A DNA stretch of 25,209 nucleotides from Pigoraptor vietnamica (Eukaryota; Opisthokonta; Filasterea), in contig CALSCQ010001586.1 in the NCBI GenBank assembly GCA_943704525.1, forward strand, positions 1 through 25,209. The letters run 5' to 3'. How positions within the stretch are numbered: position 1 is the first letter of the stretch; each line of letters begins with the position of its first letter. This document shows positions 2,397-24,200 of this stretch, piece by piece. The translations under genes were made by a program, and so were the position numbers. A model generated the notes under the pieces. It saw only the letters and a program-made list of their open reading frames with translations, ran no database searches and was not told where the DNA came from.

Positions 2397-4452
2397 CTAA
2401 AATTTGCACGCCAAGCCGCCCTTGCCCCGATCACAACAAACATCGCAGGCAGACACCCACGACGACTGGTGCACCGTGTTGATTCGCACTGTCACGCTGC
2501 CCGTGGTCACTGTCCGGAATCCAAGCTTGCTCAGCCGCGGCTCCTGCGCGCACGCATGGTGAGCGAGGCGGGGCATCCAGGCTGCAATGCAAATCCCACA
2601 GCTGGACAGGCTGACGCACCGTGAAATCCGAAGGGACGGCCGTGTATGTCAGGTCCTCCAGTTCGGGTGCACCGCCGACAAAAAAGCGGCGCGTCGCCTG
2701 CTCCACGGACCCCAGCGGCCGCCACATGGTCACCTCCAAAGTGGTCGAACCTGCGCAACACAGACGTGCGAGAGTGCGCATGCAAGTGAGCGGAAGTAGC
2801 ATCGTTGGTAGCAGGGCAACGCACACACACCTGGCCTGTCGGGCAGTGCAAAGTAGCCGTAGCCCTCCACGCGGTACCGCTCCCAACTGTCGAGCGAAAC
2901 GACTTGCAGATAGACGCGCGGAAAGGGAACAGGCCCCTCTGCAGCGCACTCCCATTAGCACCACGATGGACACGGCACATCACACGCACGCAGCGCACTC
3001 ACCCGACGCGGCACACAGCAGCTCCCACTCAAAGGGAAATGCGAGCGCGGCGGCGCCAGACGACCCCCCGCGATCGCCAATGGCTGACACGGCGGCGAGG
3101 GGCTGGTCGGGGTCCGGGGCAGACCACGGTCGCGGCAGCTCGAGCGCGTAGTGCACGTAGACGCTGTTCGACTCGAATCCCTTGGCGCACACAATCTCGC
3201 CCATCGCCCACACGCGCGTGGCCTCCAGGTCGGGCTCGCGCACAAACTCCGTCCCCACGCGGTTCGCGAGCAGGTCCGCGTGGCGGTGGTACAGCTCCCG
3301 GTACACCTCCCGTTCGCGCTCCTGCGCCGCCCGGTCCTGCGCCCGCGACGCGTTTTCCACGCGAAACTCAAAGACGTCGTGCAGCACCGACTCGATGCGG
3401 TACGGCGGCACGCTGCGGTTGAAGTCGGGGCGTATCGTCACGACGCCCTTCGCGTCCGCCACGAGCGAGCACAGCACGCGCACGTCCGACAGGGACCCTT
3501 CCTCTTCGCTCGGCGCCTCCCCCCCAATGTAAGCGGCGGCCGCGACAAGGTCTGCCATGATGTGCATCGTCTGACACGCCGTGTCCGGCACGTGGTGCGT
3601 GCGAACGCCGCGAGGCACTACGCGCACGGGCTGGCCGTCGCTTAGCCTCAGGTGTGCGTCCCCGTGGCGCCGTCGTGCCTATCGACAATGATGACGATTA
3701 AGCGCGACCATCCTGCACAGTACACTCCCCCCACTCAGGTCGTCCATTTAACCCCTCCACCCTACATCTTCATACTCAATTAGCCCCTAGACACATTGCA
3801 ACAGAGACACATTACAGCAGACACACACACACACCTCGACCACATTATCGATGAGTGTCTGTGGCGTCGTGTCTTGCGAGTCCGAGACCTCCCGCGTGTA
3901 GTCATTCGCGCTCACAAAGTCGTCCGCATCCACATACGTGAACATGATCCCGCCTCCGCCGCGCGCCGCCGCCTTGTGCGGGGACCCCGCAGCCTCGAGT
4001 TCTGCAACCTGTGCGCTGTACCGCGCCGCAAGGGGGTCGTCCGCACACGCCGCGGGGTCCGCGTAGCGCTCCAATTCGCGGCGCCCAAACACCTTCTCCT
4101 GCCACCCCACCGTCAGCGACAGGTCCGGCGCAGCGTCGGCACGGTCTCCGGTGTGCGCATCCCTCCCGCCATCCCCGTCGTCTTCGTCACTGTCAACATC
4201 CACAGAGCGCGACTCCTTCCGTCGCTTCCCTCCACCTTCCTGCAGCGTGATCGGTGCCTGCGCAGCTGTCGCTCTCCGCAGAACCACACGAACGCGAAAG
4301 TGCTCAAGCGAGTCGTGCGTGCGGTATGATGCGGCATCGCGCGGATCCTCGCGCGGCGCCTCGTCCTTCAGCGGCGTCCATTCGCGGTCCTTGTCCTCCC
4401 CTTTCTTCCATGGCACGCGCAGCAGGCGCCGCAGCCGCGAGGGCTCGCCCAT
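2397..4452 (-). CDS. MKS1: Meckel syndrome type 1 homologue, B9-domain transition-zone protein (5 exons)
   Basis: Exons on the minus strand are 4452-3835, 3678-3003, 2938-2831, 2750-2620 and 2543-2397. Phases agree throughout and give about 559 residues, close to the usual MKS1 length. Diagnostic blocks are VGWQEKVFGR and FTYVDADDF in exon 1; QTMHIMADL, the RELYHRHADLLANRVGTEF helix and GEIVCAKGFESNSVYVHY in exon 2; SLDSWERYRVEGYGYF in exon 3; TMWRPLG and RRFFVGGAPELEDLTY in exon 4; and EPRLSKLGFRT with TTGSVTVRI in exon 5. The B9 (C2-like) domain spans exons 2-4. MKS1 works with B9D1/B9D2 in the ciliary transition-zone gate, so the organism should build a cilium. Exon 1 also carries a basic/acidic insert not expected in the family. 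The exon 2 acceptor (3679) and the extreme C-terminus are the least certain points. The start at 4452 has no obvious upstream rival. Confidence 0.93.
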
Positions 4453-9110: not shown

Positions 9111-11243
9111 TCAGCGGTCGCTGAAGCCGCTCGCAGCCTTCGCGGCGGATCCTATGCTGTGGAAGCCCGTGTCGCGTGGGGGTGCCTCGCCATCGTCGGC
9201 GTCCTCGTTGCGGCGCACCTGCACGCGCACGCGGCGCGGATCAAAGAGCATCTCTGCGACCTTGTCCTCGGTGAGGCTCACGCGGCGCTCGAGGATGCTG
9301 ACCGTGTTCGTGAGCACGTCGAGCTGCCCGAGAATCGCCGAGAGCTTCTCGGAAATGTCTTCGGGAAACTGCGAGACAGTAAAAAGGACGCGGGGGGGGG
9401 GGGGAGGTGAGGGTGAGCCGCGAGGGAAACACGGGTGGAAAGTGACAAGTCGCATGCACCATCACAATTGACGCACCTGCCGCGGCGCCAACCGGCGCGT
9501 GACGGGACCGTCGTCGCCCTCGTCGCCATACAGAGCCCCCTGATGCGCCAGAGACACGGATTAACACACAAATTCAATTTCAAATTCAGTGACAGTTATT
9601 TCTATGTCCTTGGCCGCCACTCACCTCGGGCGCCCGAATGGGGTCCTGGAATATCGCGGGGCCCACGTTGACCACCGGCGGCTGCTTGTTGACCGTGTCC
9701 TTCACGTGCGCGGCGCCACTGGGAGGCTGCGCGAGTGCGGTGTCAATGGCCGTTCACATGTGGCTGAATAATCCCGTAGCCCATTGCGAAGCGTACCTTT
9801 ACACCGGCCGACGACGAAATGTGCGACGTTGCTGAGCGCGCACCGCCCTCGAACTGTGACGAAGCAGGGTGTGAGACACGACGGGACATTATTTCCACCA
9901 CTCACAGCGCCTCTGTCTCTCTCTCACGCACCCTGAGGCCGTCCTGTCGCACGTCCTCCTGATCACGACCGCCAAGCACTGCGACGGCGATGATGCAGGG
10001 GGTCACCTCACCGACAGACACAATTTCTCGAATGACTGTCAGCGGGAATCTCTCACACACCTTCGTCGGCGTCGTTCGCATCAAAGTTCGTCTTCCACAC
10101 GAGCACGCCGTGGTCTGCGCCACCAGACGCAAAGTAGTCGCCGCGTGGGGAGAATCGCGCGCACGTCGCGGCGTTCTGGTGCCCGTGCAGCGTGTAGAGC
10201 AGGTGGCCCTCCAGCAGGTCCCAGATCTGCAGCGGAAGAGCAAGCGTCAGACAGTGAAGCTAGTGTTCAGACCAATGTTGAAATGCAATGAATTGCCGCC
10301 GCGGTATAAGTGCAACGCAACGATCGCACATGCAGTCGAATGAAACGAAGATGAGCCCAAGCAGAGAGCCGTGCGAGACGCGCCTTCAGTGTCGAGTCGT
10401 TGGACGAGGAGACGAGGAAGTTCCCCGAGGGGTGGAACGCGATCGAGTTGACTGTATCGCCGTGCGCCTGGTAGTGCTGCAGCAGGCGCATCGTGCGCAC
10501 GTCCCACAGCTTGATGGTGTGGTCCGTGCTGCACGACGCCACGCACGTGCCGTCGGGGTGGAAGGCCGCGGCATTCACCATGCTGCATAGGTGAACATGC
10601 GCGTGAGCGACCTCTCCATGCCCACACGCAGAAACAGCACGCTCGCACGTTCCCGCAGAGACACTCGCAGTCAAACAAACACACACCCGCTGTGGTCCGT
10701 GAATGTGTGCACGCCTGTTCGCGATTCGGCATCCCACAAACGCACTGTTTTGTCGTCACCGCACGAGACTATGAGACGTCCGTCCGGCGAAAACTCGGCG
10801 CAGCGCACCCAATTGGAGTGCCCCTGCAGAGTGTACTGGAACCGCTGGCGATCGACCGACCACACTTTCACCGTCTTATCATCCGACGCCGTTACCAGTT
10901 GTCGGCCGCTGCGCGAGAACGCCACGCTGCGCACCGTTGCAGAGTGGGCCTTGAACACCGTCGACTCGCCGCGCACGCTCGGAATCCAGAGTCGCACCGT
11001 GCTGTCGCGCGAACCGCTGGCGATGATCTGCCCCGTGGGGGAGAAGCGCACAGACTGCACCGCACCCTTGTGGCCAACAAATCGGAACGCGCGCATCTGC
11101 GGCTTGAAATTCCACACCATGACGGACCCGTCCATCGACGACGTGGCGAGCTGCTTCATGTTTGGGTTGAAGTCGACGGCGGTGACGGCATCCTTGTGCC
11201 CACGGAACGTGCGCTCAAGCGCGGGGTCGCGCCCGGACGCCAT
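9111..11243 (-). CDS. POC1: POC1 centriolar WD40 protein (8 exons)
   Basis: Exons (minus) are 11243-10687, 10582-10384, 10226-10061, 9978-9932, 9853-9797, 9726-9625, 9539-9477 and 9368-9111. Together they give 482 residues. Exons 1-3 encode a seven-blade WD40 propeller with close POC1 signatures such as [36 protein letters not shown] and [12 protein letters not shown]. Exons 4-7 form a linker of low conservation. Exon 8 carries the diagnostic POC1 C-terminal coiled coil [20 protein letters not shown], which localises the protein to centrioles. POC1 is a core component of centrioles and basal bodies, needed for their stability and length. The start is the first in-frame ATG, just before the conserved DPALER block. 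Intron 2 uses a GC donor (AAG|GCGCGT). Intron 7 has the 13-base C run (sense strand) before its acceptor. Confidence 0.95.
9392..9404. repeat. G13 homopolymer in POC1 intron 7
   Basis: Thirteen G residues on the plus strand read as C13 in the POC1 transcript. They lie about two dozen bases upstream of the exon 8 acceptor, where they form part of the polypyrimidine tract. Confidence 0.95.
10227..10383 (-). other. Probable GC-AG intron 2 of POC1
   Basis: The POC1 reading frame requires exon 2 to end after ...DSTLK and exon 3 to begin IWDLLEG, as in other POC1 proteins. The only junction that does this in frame is AAG|GCGCGT...CTGCAG|ATC, a GC-AG intron. No GT donor nearby preserves both the frame and the conserved residues. 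Confidence 0.75.
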
Positions 11244-12143
11244 TTTTTTGCGCGCGAGTTGCCAGGCCAACGCGCCCCCCCTGTAGTACTATTAGGCGTC
11301 TGTTCTCTTTGAAATGCACAAGCCAAACCGCACGGATTGCTGTGAGAACGCGTAGCATGAAGCACTATCTGGATAGAGTTGCCACTTTTTCAAATTGTGC
11401 GCCAAAAGACTCACGTGACAAAGCGCGCAATTTTTCAAATTTTCACACGCACCGATGACGCCACACACTGTCTGCAAGGCCCCTTTGAGCGTTGATAATC
11501 GCGTTCCATACAATTTTCATACAAAATAATTATTATTTAAATCAGTACACTTTCCCACCCTTGTTTTATTTCCATACAATTTCCCATACAAATCGGCGCC
11601 GCACATTCACTATTTATTTTCATACAATTTTCCATACATACTCCTTTAATTTGGGCGCCCACCCACAAAAGCGCGTGCAAAATGCGCCACAGCGTAAATT
11701 AATGCGCAAATTTCAAATCATGCGAGCGCAAAATAACCCACTTTTCGGTACAATTTCAATACAAACCCCTCCACTAATAACAGCCGTGCGTTTATATTCC
11801 CGTCCCCTCTTTTTTTCCCCCCTTTTTCGCCCCCGTCCCTGTCTCCTTCCCCCTCTGCGCGCACACGCACACACGGGGCACACACACACAGGCGCGCCGC
11901 GCTTTTCGCACTCGCCCCAGTTCAACGAGTCCCTTGCCGTTTGAGCGCCAACTTCAAATTGCAGCGCTCCACTCGCCGCACCCCGCACGCACTTCCCGCC
12001 ACTCGGAACGCTCTCCGCCGACCAGCGAACGGCCCCGCACGCACTTGGACCCATTCGGCTCTCCTTTTGCGTTAATCAACGATCGCGCATCTCGACTGCT
12101 TTGTAAGGCGCTGCGGCCGCTGTGCGTGGCGCTGGAGGGGAGG
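11244..12143. promoter_or_regulatory. Divergent, AT-rich promoter region of POC1 and UBF-like gene
   Basis: These 900 bases separate two divergent starts. The centre is markedly AT-rich compared with flanking exons. It holds four copies of a CATACAATTT-containing element (11505-11766), several TTCAAATT motifs (near 11389, 11431, 11711 and 11949) and a long T/C tract (about 11806-11855) followed by a short CA tract. No gene is supported. TTCAAA resembles the CHR cell-cycle element known from animals, but function here is inference. Confidence 0.6.
11505..11766. repeat. Four dispersed copies of a CATACAATTT...CATACAAA element
   Basis: Copies lie at about 11505-11525, 11570-11591, 11618-11638 and 11746-11765. 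Each is a double motif, a CATACAATTT half followed within a few bases by (C)CATACAAA. The last copy is the most diverged. Spacings are irregular (about 65, 48 and 128 bases), so this is not a simple tandem repeat. Confidence 0.75.
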
Positions 12144-14841
12144 ATGCTGCAGGCCGTGCAAAAGGCCGGTAAGCCGGCGAGCGGCAAGCCCGCGGAAAAG
12201 GCTGCGCGCGCGCCCAAGTCGCCCACGAAGGAGGATGGGCGCAAGCGCAAGGGGGATGGGGAGAAGAAGCGCGGCGACAAGGGCAAGAAGAAGGATGGCG
12301 AGACGGACGAGGAGCACGACGACACGACCGAGGACGAGCAGCAGGGCATGGCCGCCCCGGAGCACACGGGCCGCAAGCTCAAGGATCCGAGTGGGTAATC
12401 GGGGTGAATCGCGGTTGTTCGCGGGTGAACCGTACTTGGGATTCCGTCCGATCGGGGCTGTGGATAGAATTGTCAAAAGTGTAACAGAATTTTGGGGAGC
12501 TTTGGAGAAGACGGTTGTTCACATGGTGTGCGTCTCTGCGCGCAGACTCGATTGTGTGGACGCAGGACGACGGCATCATTCTCGAGCGCCTGCGCTACAT
12601 CACCCGCTTCACGGAGCACGAGCCGTCGCTCAAGTGGGAGGGCTTTGTGTGGAGCAACGAGTGGACGGCGGAGAAGATCAAGGAGCGCTGGAACAAGATT
12701 GCGCGCACGGTGCGTGTGCGTGCGTGCGTGCGGCGTGTGTGCATGCGTGTTAACATGGGATGCATTCCGTCGAGACTAGTGCGGGTCTGCGTGGGCGTTG
12801 CCACTCACCCGCGTCACACTCTGCAGGTGCGCACGCAGCGCGGCCAGTTCACCTTTGGCGATGCGGTGGCGCGCGTGTGGCAGCACTACCAGGAGGCCCT
12901 CAGCCAGGGCCGCGTGCTGATGGGCGAGGAGTACGACGAGTACAAGGCCAATGGCGGCCGCCGCCTCAAGAAGAAGAAGAAGAAGGTGCGCACTCAAATC
13001 CCTCCTCCCCTCATGCTGTGTCCCTTCCTCACTCCCGCTGTGCTTCCTCGTTCGTGGTGTGCGTGTTGCTGTCTCCGCGGCCCGGCGTTTCTTGTCGCGC
13101 TTTGTTCGAGTGCGTGGGTGATAGCGCCATGAATGACCCGACCGGGTTTCCCGCGCAGGATCCCGAGGCACCGAAGCGTCCCGACACGGCGTACATGGTG
13201 TTTACGCGGCAGAAGCGCGAGGAGCTCAAGGAGACGATGAAGGGCGCGCCGATGACGGAGGTCATGAAGAAGCTCGCCGAGCTGTGGCGCGCACTCCCCG
13301 CCGCCAACAAGGTGCGTGTCGTGGTGGCAGGGAGGATGTGGAATGTGCCCTATGCGCGCGTTGCGAGCTGTCGATTGCGTCTGCGCACTCCCATAAATGT
13401 CGTGTGATGGAGGCTGCCCGCTCACCCGCCGTGCCACCGCAGGCCAAGTATGAGAAGAAGGCGGAGAAGCTCAAGGCGGCGTACATGCAGCACAAGCAGG
13501 AGTACCTCCTCACACACCCTAAGCCCAAGAAAGGCGAGGGTTACGACGGGTCGGGCCGCAAGCGCAAGCGCGATGATGCCAAGCGCCGCGCTCGGTGGGT
13601 GTCTGGTCGTTGTGAGCAAAGGGAGGGGAAGGGGAGGGGAGTGCGCGTGACCGGCACTTGCCTTTATTGCGTGTTGTTTGAACTGTCTTCCCTAATCTGG
13701 CACAATCGCCTCGCGCGCGCAGCACGGGCAACCAGATTTGGAAGGACGAGTACACGCCCGTCCTGCGCCAGAGCCGCCCCGACCTCTCCTTTGGCGATCT
13801 TCAGATTGAGCTGGGCAAGATTTGGAAGGAGCTCCCCGAGGAGCGCAAGAAGCCCTACATGGACCGCGCCGCGATGGAGCGCGACCAGATCCGCCGCGAG
13901 GAGGAGGCCGCCGCCGCCGTCGCCTTTGACCCCGCGGGCATGGACCTGTTCGGCGCTGGGTTCCCGCCGGGCACCGCGAACCCTCAGTACATTTTCCACC
14001 CGTCGTCGGTGCTCATGACGCAGTACGCGCACCCGCAGGCCGCGTACGCCGGGGGTGCGGGGCCGTCGGAGAAGCCTGCAAAGAAGCGCGCGAAGAAGGA
14101 CCCCAACGCGCCCAAGCCGCCGCTCAAGACGGCGTATCTGCTGTGGGCGTCGCAGTTTCGCCAGACGATCGCCGACCGGGATCCGCTCATGTCGTTTGAG
14201 GACATTTCGCGGCAGCTGGGCGTTGCGTGGAAGTCTCTGTCTGAGCACGAGCGCAACCAGTGGGAGGAGCGGCTGAAGCAGGAGCGCGAGAAGTACAACA
14301 GGGACCTCGCCGACTACATCCGCACGCTCCCCGAGAGCGAGCGGGCGCGCGCGCTGCGGGAGGCGCAGGAGGGCGAGAAGGACGCGAAGAAGTCGGCCAA
14401 AAAGGCGGCGGCTGCGGCGGCCGCGGCGGCTGTTTCGTTTGCGCAGGTGCGGTGCGGTCCGTGCTGAGCTAGGAATCATCTTTTGTGGTCTCGCTACTTT
14501 TTGTCTGGTCCATCCGCTGCCTCCCTAACTCTCCGTGCTCTACTTCGCAGCCTTCGCCGAGCGCGAACGTGCTCGCGACGATCCCCCTCCAGGCGGCGCA
14601 GCAGCAGCAGGTGGCCATGCAGGCGATGCTCGTCCCCGGCGGCGTCCCAGCGCCCAAGAAGAAGACGCAGGCGTCGGTTGGCCCCAACCCGATGATGCCG
14701 CAAATGCCCGTGCCCCTCGTCGACATGCAGCAGGCCATGCAGGGCCTCGCGCCGGCGGTCGTTGCGGGCGGCGCGCTCCCGAAGCAGAAGCAGCCCAAGA
14801 ACAAGGGCCAGCAGGCGCCCATGCAGGTCGACTTCCCGTGA
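12144..14841 (+). CDS. UBF-like multi-HMG-box nuclear protein (7 exons)
   Basis: Exons 12144-12390, 12546-12709, 12827-12985, 13159-13311, 13443-13594, 13723-14446 and 14551-14841 give 629 residues. Residues 1-82 are Lys-rich with a short acidic patch. Residues 83-190 resemble the N-terminal dimerisation region of UBF: WTQDD, LKWEGFVWS and AEKIKERWNKIARTVRTQ, then a GRRLKKKKKK linker. HMG box 1 (about 191-265) starts DPEAPKRPDTAYMVF. A degenerate second box (about 293-350) contains LSFGDLQIELGKIWKELPEE. A strong third box (about 418-490) starts DPNAPKPPLKTAYLLW. A poly-Ala run and a Gln/Met/Pro-rich tail follow. HMG-box identity is firm. Assignment as a UBF-type RNA polymerase I factor is inference from the N-terminal region directly before box 1. 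An HMGB/Hmo1-like architectural protein is the alternative. The acidic C-terminal tail of animal UBF is absent. Confidence 0.85.
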
Positions 14842-18251: not shown

Positions 18252-20419
18252 ATGTCCTCTCCCCAGGGCACCACGGCGCCCATGGCCGTGCCCAAGCGAA
18301 AGGTCAGCGCGGGTGACGTCGTCAAGCGGCTCATAGGCGCGGCCATCGGATCCCCACCCGCGGACGGAGGCGCACCGGTGGCCGTCGCCGTGTTCACGAC
18401 GTCCGATGCCGAGGGTTCGGCCACGGTGCGCCATCCGTCCCCCGCGCGGCCTCGCCGACGCCACACTGACATGCAGCTGAGCATCTCCGTGTCGCCGCCG
18501 GTCGTGCCACCGGTTGTGCGGAGATCGTCAGAGAGCTCGCTGGAGCGCGTACGCTCCGCGTCAACGCCCGCGGCGTACTTGCCTTCAGACGCATCCCCGT
18601 CGCTGCAGTCGCTGCAGGAGCGCGACACGGAGGACGACGACACACCGGCGGAGGAGTCTGACGCGGATGCCCTCGACGACGACGAAGGCGACGAATTGGA
18701 GGGAGACGAGGAGGAGGATTTTGATGTGTTTGCCGGCACTTCGGCGCCGGACGGCCAACAGAGCCCTCGCATGGTCAAGGCGGGCGTGCGAAATCACCTT
18801 GCGTCCGTCATTCCTGGCAAGGGAAAGAAGGGTGGGCGGCCGTGTGCTGTGCGGCACGCAAACTGTGTGCAAAGGTACCTGCACTTCCACGTTCCTCCTC
18901 ACCCCGCCAATTGCCCAACGCAGTGCTGTACACCTGCACCGTGTGCAAAAGCACAGCACGCGAGTTTTGTGAGAGTGACGCTTTATCGAGTCTTTCTCAC
19001 CCCGCCAATTGCCCAACGCAGTGCTGTACACTTGCACCGAGTGCAAAAGCACAGCACGCGAGTTTTGTGAGAGTGACGCTTTATCGAGTCTTTCTCACCC
19101 CGCCAATTGCCCAACGCAGTGCTGTACACTTGCACCGAGTGCAACAAGACGATGAAGGCGTACGTGTCGCAGCTGTCGTCAGGCTCGGTGCCCTTTCACC
19201 AGTGCTCTCCATACCAGTCCACGATGCCGGTCGAGATGCGCGCAGCCGCAAAGGTTCGAATGGATGTAGACACAGTTGTCGCGCCACAATAGCCTCTCAA
19301 CTGGAGGCCCTTCCTTCGCAGGTGTCGCAGCAGAACCCCCTGTACACGCCCAGCGCCACTGTGAGCGAGAATCCCCTCTACGACGGCACCATGTCGTTCA
19401 AGATAGCGCAGACGCCCGCGCGCCCAACGTTGGCAGGTGGGTGGGACAGTGCGTCGTAGAGAATTCGCGGCTGTGGGTTGCACGCACGTGCCGTTTACTG
19501 AGTATTACTTGTCGACGACAGAACTCGCTGAAATGCACCGCGTTTTCGGCGTTCCCATTGAGCGCACGTGCCAGTTTACCGGTGGGGACATTCCTCACAT
19601 TGTGAAAGAGCTTATTACCGCCATTACGGCGAGCGGTGGGTCCTCCTCGTTTGCCTGCACTCTGTGTGCGTTGTGTGCTTGAGAGTGTGTGCGGGGTCGT
19701 GAATGTATGCGGTGTTTCGTGTGTTCCGAGACTGTTGCTTATGGGGTGATGTCACTTCAGGGTTGCGCGCCGAAGGTCTTTATCGACTCAGCGGCTCCCA
19801 GGACGACGTCTTGAAAATCAAGACGTGCTATGATCGAGGTGCGAGCGCGTGCGAGCGCAGTGCAGCAGCTCTTTCGTGTGCGGTTGCACTGACACCGTAA
19901 ACTCGCAGGCGACGTCGACGTTGATCTCAGCGAGTCGAGGTGGCCTGACATTCACACGCTGACGGGCGCACTGAAACTCTACTTTCGCGAACTCCCGGAG
20001 CCTCTTGTCACTCGCGCGCTCTACGACGACTGGATACGCGCCGCAGGTACGCAACATTGTCGCTGGCACGTACCGTCAATATCATACTGAATTGAATTTT
20101 CATTACCTCCCGCCCGGCAGACACCACGGACACGGACAAACGGAAAGTGCTTGTGTGCAATCTCATCCAGCGGCTGCCCGCGCCAAACCGCGCCACCCTG
20201 CGCTTCCTCATGTCCCATCTCGTTCGCGTGGCGGCGCTTGCTTCCGAGAACCGAATGGGCACGACCAATCTCGGGATCGTCTTCGGACCGACGCTGTTCT
20301 TGGGCGGCGCGACGGGCAGCGAGACGCCAGAGCAGCTGACGAGGGGCGCGTTCCACACCAAGGCGCTGTCGGCGCTCGTGACCTGGATGCTGGATTCGGG
20401 CGACGCACTCTTTGTGTGA
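18252..20419 (+). CDS. RhoGAP-domain protein with duplicated mini-exons (about 9 exons)
   Basis: Exons are 18252-18831, 18924-18968, 19022-19066, 19120-19253, 19322-19436, 19522-19635, 19761-19838, 19909-20046 and 20121-20419, giving 515 residues if all are used. Residues 1-193 are low-complexity Ser/Pro/Ala-rich with a long Asp/Glu block. A short segment with three LYTCTxCK units follows, then the RhoGAP domain from FGVPIER to the end. The arginine finger is in EGLYRLSG (Arg about 353). KLYFRELPEPL and the NRMGTTNLGIVFGPTLF block are intact, so it should stimulate GTP hydrolysis by a Rho/Rac/Cdc42-type GTPase. No PH, BAR, SH3 or full C1 domain is visible. The CxxC units alone do not make a recognisable zinc finger. 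Skipping one or both 45-base mini-exons keeps the frame. ATG 18252 is the first in frame with exon 1; ATG 18282 is possible. Confidence 0.9.
18899..19144 (+). repeat. 98-bp tandem repeat carrying a 45-nt exon and 53-nt intron
   Basis: Units occupy 18899-18996 and 18997-19094, and a partial third unit covers 19095-19144. Each full unit holds an acceptor (AACGCAG), a 45-base exon and a donor (GTGAGAG). Units 1 and 2 differ at only a few sites. Unit 3 is identical to unit 2 until it diverges into the long downstream exon after CCGAGTGCAA. It lies wholly inside the RhoGAP gene. Confidence 0.95.
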
Positions 20420-21281: not shown

Positions 21282-24200
21282 ATGATGCAACATGGCTGGC
21301 CCGCGTACGGTCGGCAACCACCCCCTCCGCCTCCGCACGTGGTGCAGGTTGGCGGTAGACGAGAGCGGGTGCTCGTGAGCGGCGAATATGGCGCACCCGT
21401 TGCGCACCCGTTCGCACGGGCGAGTTCCGTGCTGTTGGATGCGCCGCGGTATGCCTACGAGGGGGCGCCTCGAGCAATCGCATCTGCGAACGTCGGCGGT
21501 CCCGTGGTGCAGCACGGCGACAAAGTCCGCGTGCTGTGCCTTCCTGCCGGCACGGTGCCTCTCCCTGCGGAAGTGGCCGTTCCGTCCAACCGATGGAGCG
21601 GGGCACTCACTACCGTGGCGTATGATGCGCCGTACGGTCCCTCGCGCGAGCCGCATGTCATGTGGTCCGGTGCGCCGCCCGTGCCCTTAAGACTGCCCCT
21701 TCCTCACACGCAAGAAGTGTGGACGGACGAGTACCCGGGCTCCTTGCCGCGCCCCGCCGTGTACGTGCGCTCTCCGCCATCACACACGGCCACATCGCTT
21801 GCGCTCGCGGCCCTGTCGGTCGCACCGGAGACGGCCAGGCGCGCCATCCGTCCTCGAGAACTGCCCCCATCCGCTGTCCTCTTGTCTTCCAGCATTCCCC
21901 GCATGCGCTTTCATCCGTATGCGGACAGGCGGCCCTCGCGTCGCGCGGAAGAGTGGAGGGCGCCGCCGTCCGTCGCATACGTTGCCGAGGAATGGCCGCG
22001 TCGCGCTGTCCAACACACGACGCGTGCGCCGCACACTGTTCTCATCGATGCGCCGTATGCTGCGGAATCGCAAGGGCCGGCTTCCATCCCGCTTGTCGTT
22101 CCCCGTGACATCATGCCGCCCGTGCCCGCACCTGTCGTTTTCCCGAGCGCGGTCCTGTGGCCCGGCAATGGGAACGGTCGCTCGCACAGCCACGGACCGC
22201 CTGTGGCGCAGGGGTATCTGCCCGCGGGACGCACCTCGGGCGCATACGACGGCCCCTCCACGATCGCGTACGCTCCTCTGCGAACGGCGCTCGGTGCAGA
22301 CGCATTTGCACACGGCGCGCCGCCTCGGTCCGTTGGGACGCCTGTGCTAGATCGGCATGTTGCGCGCGGGCGTGGCGGTAGCACAGCGCCGGAACCGCCC
22401 ACCCCCATGTCACCGCCCGCGGAACGGGCCTTGGGGCTTGAGGGCGCGAGTGGCAGCGGTGCGTCGGCCGGCACGACGACGGTGCAGACAACAGTTTCTC
22501 TACCGAAGAAGAAGCGCGGGCGCCCGCCGAAGTCCAAGGTGAACGAGCGGCCGTTGGAGGACGTGACGGCGTCCGCACAACGCACGCCGGTCTCCGCGCG
22601 CGCGGTCGACGTGGACATGGAAGGGGGAGTGCACGGATTCGCCACGCCGCCCCCCTCGCGTCGTGTCGCGGACTCGCGAACAGCCTCGAGAAATGACGCG
22701 AGAACACAGGGAAAACGCAAGCGCGCCGTGAGCGACTTGGACGACGCCGGCGCTCTGCGCAGTGTTGCTGTGCGGCTCGACTTCGCCGACGCAACACGCG
22801 TTTCCTCGCCCGAACAGGAGAACCCCCGTGCGCACGCAAGCGAGCCACCCCCACCGTCGGCGCAGCGGGGTGGCGCGGACGGCGCAAGCACGTCGGGCAA
22901 TCCAGACGACGAAACGTCCCCAAGTCCGGCCGCTGCAGTCACGGAGGAGCCGAAGGCTGCGCCGGTCAAGCGAGGGCGCGGGCGGCCGCGGAAGGACAGC
23001 CTCGGGGCGACCGCAACACCCGCGGCTCAGAAGCGAGAGAGCGTCAAAGAGAGGGACAAGAGTGTGCGTGGCGAGGGGCGCCGGCGTGGCCGCCCACGCA
23101 AGCAGGACGGTCCGTCCAAGGCTGCGGTGCTGAGAGCGCGGCTGCGGCGCGTGGAGTCGTCGACTGACGAGGAGTCGGCGACGTCGAGCGAGAGTGACAG
23201 CGACGGGGACTGCGAGCACTTTGACAGCGCGAAGAGGGCGTCGGCGCTGGATGCGGACGGAGAGGCCGCGGTGGCGATGGCGCGGATTGCGCTGGACCCG
23301 CGCGGGAACGGGTCTCACGTGACGAAGGAGAAGGCGATTGAGGCGTGCTGTCCCGTGCAGAGTGCGTGACTTCGCGTGCGCGTCGCTCGTCGGTGTTATG
23401 TCGTCCGCGCTCGATGTCGTTATGCATTGTGTGCGGCGTCGTGCGCAGTGGAAGCACGCCTGTGTGCGTGTGTGTGCATGTATGCATTGTCTTTGTGTGT
23501 GCATGTGTGTACATGTGTGCGCGAGCGCTAGTGCGGTTAATGCGTTGTGCCGTTGCGTTGCAGGCGTAGTCTGCCTCTGCGTGTGTGTTCTGCGCGTCCT
23601 TTCCCGCTAATCACAATCTCTCGAGAGAGTTACACACGTTCCAGTTTCTTTAGCGAGGGCAGTGTGTCACGGCCTTCGTGTGTTCCGTCAGGTGCTTAGA
23701 ACTCACGCATCATCGAACTCGCAGCGTGGGACGTCGACGGCGAGGACTACCGCATGAACTACGAGTGCGAGGGGTGTTCCGGCGCGCTGTACCATTCGCG
23801 TTACTACTGCCGCGACTGCGAAGGCGGGGAGGCCGGTTACGATCTCTGCCTCAAGTGCCTGCAGGTGCCGTTCCGTGCACGTCACCGTTGGCGCACGCAC
23901 GCTTCCCACACATACTCCCACGCACACCCTGCTTCGCGAGAGAGACGCTTGGCGTTGGCGTGTTGTGGTGCATCGCGATTCCGTCTCACTCTGTGTCCGA
24001 CAGGCGTACTTTGACGCCGACGACCACAAGCACCCGCGCGAGTCGTTTTCGCGCGCAGCAGTGAACGGCGATCTCTTCGTCAAGACGATGGACGCCGGCC
24101 TGCGCGTGGACCAAATTGCGATGGACCGTTTCGACAGAAAGGTGGGTGTGCCCGCAACGACGCCTGCCCCGTCGGTGGTCTGCGTGCACGCACGATGGTA

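Follow-up and report, generated by a model that had tools for sequence, protein, structure and literature searches.

The gene at positions 12144-14841 (+ strand) of contig CALSCQ010001586.1 of the filasterean Pigoraptor vietnamica, a non-metazoan holozoan, probably encodes an architectural DNA-binding protein related to UBF, which, judging from its sequence, would be likely to dimerise and to loop ribosomal DNA (rDNA). In animals, UBF brings the ribosomal RNA genes into a folded form for transcription. The whole stretch of 25,209 nt that was analysed is called the window. The sequence itself shows the gene, the order of its domains and a likeness to UBF in the N-terminal domain (N-domain), in how the HMG boxes follow one another and in the extension of the third box. 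The gene is a UBF-like variant and was not filed as a canonical UBF, because it lacks UBF boxes 4-6 as well as the acidic tail. This form is best explained as a UBF-like factor, reduced or ancestral, that would loop DNA and is made of a dimerisation-like domain and boxes 1-3.

Gene structure and domain organization

The gene was confirmed as real, its spliced translation containing no internal stop. It starts with the ATG at 12144 and its stop codon ends at 14841. The seven exons (+ strand) are 12144-12390, 12546-12709, 12827-12985, 13159-13311, 13443-13594, 13723-14446 and 14551-14841. All six introns, of 104-173 nt, are GT-AG. The donor of exon 1 at 12391 (GTGGGT) is in phase 1, which fits the acceptor ahead of 12546, and third-position GC in exons 1-6 is 0.84-0.94. 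The motifs named in an earlier sequence-only reading of the window were all found, with the order and coordinates that it gave. The features are as follows.

12144-14841, + strand: whole coding region, 7 exons and 6 introns, 629 residues, stop-free splicing
12144-12390, + strand: exon 1, residues 1-50 Lys-rich and residues 51-82 acidic (composition)
12546-12709, + strand: exon 2, Myb/SANT-like N-domain (W-T-Q-D-D, K-W-E-G-F, R-W-N-K-I), like the human UBF N-domain and with weak Myb fold matches
12827-12985, + strand: exon 3, remainder of the N-domain and Lys run K185-K190 ahead of box 1 (sequence)
13171-13505, + strand: HMG box 1 (residues 195-262), split between exons 4 and 5 by intron 13312-13442; best Pfam stretch, genome match at 13171-13311
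13736-13903, + strand: HMG box 2 core, PF00505 match, highest score against UBF box 2
14126-14317, + strand: HMG box 3 core, PF00505 match
14261-14383, + strand: last helix of box 3 and C-terminal extension, UBF-box-3-like by sequence comparison (LPESERARAL at 14327-14356)
14390-14841, + strand: Ala/Gln/Pro-rich C-terminus without acidic tail (composition), intron 14447-14550 within

Aspartate and glutamate make up 38% of residues 51-82. Residues 83 to about 182 form a Trp-rich domain, and residues 185-190 are six lysines. Intron 2 (12710-12826, 117 nt) is open in the frame of its flanking exons (open reading frame 12485-13132), so that its retention would insert 39 residues after the SANT-like helices without a stop.

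The spliced protein matched the Pfam family HMG_box with an expect value (E) of 2.7e-41 in three stretches, which agrees with the three boxes counted previously. The genome, 32,526,649 bases in 1,395 contigs, was searched for families in six frames with introns ignored, and all such counts are lower bounds. In this search boxes 1, 2 and 3 singly matched PF00505 at E 1.0e-9, 1.8e-9 and 5.0e-15, all above the cut-off. Box 2 had been called degenerate; since its match clears the cut-off, it is less so than was held. A weak TAF4 match (E 6e-4, below the cut-off) at 14100-14530, covering box 3 and the Ala-rich stretch, is probably compositional.

Comparison of the N-domain

The best match of the N-domain among 3,794 fragments was the human UBF N-domain. 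The N-domain is also nearer to that of UBF than to 30 Myb domains of the same genome. No solved UBF N-domain turned up: with UBF 14-193 as the query sequence, none of the 39 matches at E <= 0.001 began before query residue 88. The human UBF sequence used in the comparisons was verified outside residues 1-90. Its box 1 is identical to 1k99 across 90 residues, and boxes 3, 4, 5 and 6 agree with 1v64, 1wgf, 1l8y and 1v63 at nearly all aligned residues. For box 2, K232 and K254 and their peptides are consistent with PMC3919562.

The N-domain query began with D instead of N in the comparisons with Pfam, the PDB, the genome's Myb domains, further genome copies and viral contigs, and in blastp. Alone in Pfam, the N-domain gave a single row, of an unrelated family, at E 0.063, and nothing better than E 0.65 was found among PDB sequences. 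No second copy of it was found in the genome; in viral contigs one stretch fitted the pattern and no relatives were found. The predicted structure of exon 2 was of low confidence (mean predicted local distance difference test, pLDDT, 66.5; predicted template modelling score 0.36), and none of its nine Foldseek matches reached E <= 0.001.

By fold, exon 2 weakly matches Myb domains, and the N-domain of UBF is itself weakly Myb/SANT-like. A Myb/SANT domain in residues 83-137 and a UBF-type dimerisation domain are both putative. These Myb matches would also suit a lineage-specific chromatin protein, in which HMGB-type boxes were multiplied in one gene, joined to a Myb/SANT domain and made UBF-like by convergence. 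Such a protein would bend DNA in general or belong to a chromatin complex as one of its subunits. The genome supplies 58 Myb matches and 22 HMG-box matches on which it could draw, and the best score of the single boxes is with HMGB1. We consider this origin unlikely, since the N-domain is nearer to that of UBF than to the genome's Myb domains, and since the box order and the box 3 extension accord with UBF.

Comparison of the HMG boxes

A single blastp alignment to UBF 22-392 spans the N-domain and all three boxes, with 21% identity and E 7e-16 for this one subject. When the three boxes were assigned to UBF boxes, the assignment to boxes 1-2-3 had the top summed Z of the 20 assignments that keep the order. 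Among all 120 assignments in any order it ranks eighth, since UBF box 4 suits box 1 better and UBF boxes 1 and 2 give box 3 slightly higher scores. The highest score of box 2 is with UBF box 2. The 41-residue box 3 extension retrieved five matches from 177,635 PDB sequences; UBF box 3 (1v64) was second and was the sole HMG protein among them. A single-sequence model of box 3 (mean pLDDT 75.4) gave 36 Foldseek matches, none at E <= 0.001 and mostly to unrelated entries. It was not used, and the absence of 1v64 from these lists carries no weight.

Several results weigh against kinship with UBF. The best PDB scores of the single boxes are with HMGB1 or HMGB1-containing proteins. In a tree of 27 boxes, those of the gene, UBF and HMGB formed one group without internal order. 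No counterparts of UBF boxes 4-6 were found; three HMG stretches only were detected, and HMG_box_5 is not among the five Pfam families listed for the spliced protein. The C-terminal acidic tail was not found either, as had been noted before, residues 516-629 containing only 2% aspartate and glutamate. Human UBF as genome query retrieved HMGB-like boxes first; the rows for the window were numbers 7, 14 and 15 in a list of 15, and the N-domain gave no row. The same tree placed the three boxes in the HMGB/UBF type and separated them from SOX/MATA-like boxes (support 95/96).

The likeness to HMGB1 lies in the single boxes. The gene differs from HMGB proteins in its three boxes and its Myb/SANT-like N-domain, and its box 3 extension alone retrieves no HMGB protein. 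Plants possess three-box HMG proteins, which by description share the number of boxes with the gene. Together with the pairwise box scores, which favour HMGB types, they bring up a relative of Hmo1 or of the plant 3xHMG-box proteins, acting on rDNA or mitotic chromatin with no special kinship to UBF. We regard this as very improbable: the box order and the box 3 extension point to UBF, and Hmo1, set apart here by description only, has fewer boxes, no third box and no Myb/SANT-like N-domain. What also speaks for it is that, according to PMC12235521 (2025), yeast Hmo1 is an HMG protein with a UBF-like rDNA role and, with UAF, is named the probable yeast counterpart of UBF.

Of the systems compared, UBF/UBTF (nucleolar transcription factor 1) of animals is like the gene in N-domain sequence, Lys-rich linker, box order 1-2-3 and box 3 extension. 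The gene has three boxes versus six and no HMG box 5 or acidic tail; its boxes 2 and 3 are joined by a longer linker, and its C-terminus is rich in Ala, Gln and Pro. The UBF-type homology first proposed for the gene is partly supported: the box order, the box 3 extension and the N-domain likeness uphold it, and the missing boxes 4-6 and tail, the HMGB1 scores and the tree do not.

Proposed mechanism

UBTF is reported to have an N-terminal dimerisation domain, its three N-terminal boxes to produce adjacent in-phase bends, and its dimer to make one 360-degree loop in about 140 bp (PMC10435976). That the protein described here dimerises, loops DNA, binds rDNA or acts in any way on RNA polymerase I is inferred by analogy. 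With a dimerisation-like domain and three boxes, the simplest proposal is a UBF-type loop replacing nucleosomes on active rDNA. A dimer would form, most likely via the Myb/SANT-like N-domain; the three HMG boxes of each subunit would bend DNA in phase; and the dimer would loop rDNA, excluding ordinary nucleosomes for RNA polymerase I, like the N-terminal half of UBF. The acidic tail of UBF contacts SL1, according to PMC8863233. As the tail is absent here, recruitment of promoter factors, if any, would be via other parts.

Neighbouring genes and genome content

The following neighbours were found in the window.

871-1788, + strand: histidine phosphatase
2980-3678, - strand: weak B9 (ciliary) match, E 5e-5, below the cut-off
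10671-11288, - strand: WD40 repeats
20096-20419, + strand: RhoGAP
23700-24014, + strand: ZZ finger

The genome contains 177 kinase matches, and all eight loci examined carry HRDLAARN and WMAP, which we take to be the tyrosine-kinase signature. Seven near-alike tyrosine-kinase domains (L063-L069) share a catalytic-loop insert (HRDLAARNCMV...) and represent a lineage-specific expansion. A p53-family domain was found in two adjacent stretches (L061, L062), one above the cut-off, followed by a presumably SAM-like region. The 47 cadherin-repeat matches are confined to contigs C1328 and C874, apparently in very long cadherin-type genes, and only 8 homeodomain matches were found. Such gene-family content presumably fits a holozoan outside animals, one with a small genome and probably single-celled; a very reduced animal would be a less likely reading. 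A search of the genome for RRN3 (PF05327) gave 0 matches, which carries no weight because the controls gave nothing either. An EF1A fragment, apparently cut at a contig end, is 97% identical to human over 77 residues. Contigs C407, C1211, C717, C616, C1182 and C516 carry a family of similar multi-Myb genes of near-repeated sequence, with SPWSEDERRRLLEG and FTPEEDARLCAAVEK common to several members.

Among the HMG matches, L010, L011, L013, L014, L017 and L019 (near base 1501) are related SOX/MATA-like boxes with the pattern N-S-F-I-V-F-S-N-R-F-R and formed a supported tree group (95/95). MATA_HMG is described as exclusively fungal in PMC3730723, so it would be of interest to find such boxes in a holozoan.

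Evolutionary implications

Two papers place UBF in metazoans only; in one, UBF clusters in Metazoa by the criterion of HMG box 5, with a remark on Cryptophyceae (PMC9438803). Among the literature matches listed, which do not cover subscription papers or unannotated database entries, there was no report of UBF in a unicellular holozoan. UBF-like genes of unicellular holozoans may be sitting unnamed in databases. The predicted protein suggests that the UBF core is older than animals. Tentatively, and with more doubt than for the UBF-related reading of the gene, UBF could predate animals. Its ancestral form in unicellular holozoans would have had a dimer-forming SANT-like domain and boxes 1-3, the unit reported to loop about 140 bp, and would have stood in for nucleosomes on rDNA; boxes 4-6 together with the acidic tail that binds SL1 would have been gained later toward animals (or lost here).

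If true, the occurrence of a UBF-like gene with three boxes in a holozoan outside animals would mean that the core chromatin architecture of RNA polymerase I transcription predates animals. The gene would then be a natural minimal UBF for asking whether dimerisation and boxes 1-3 organise rDNA without a tail.
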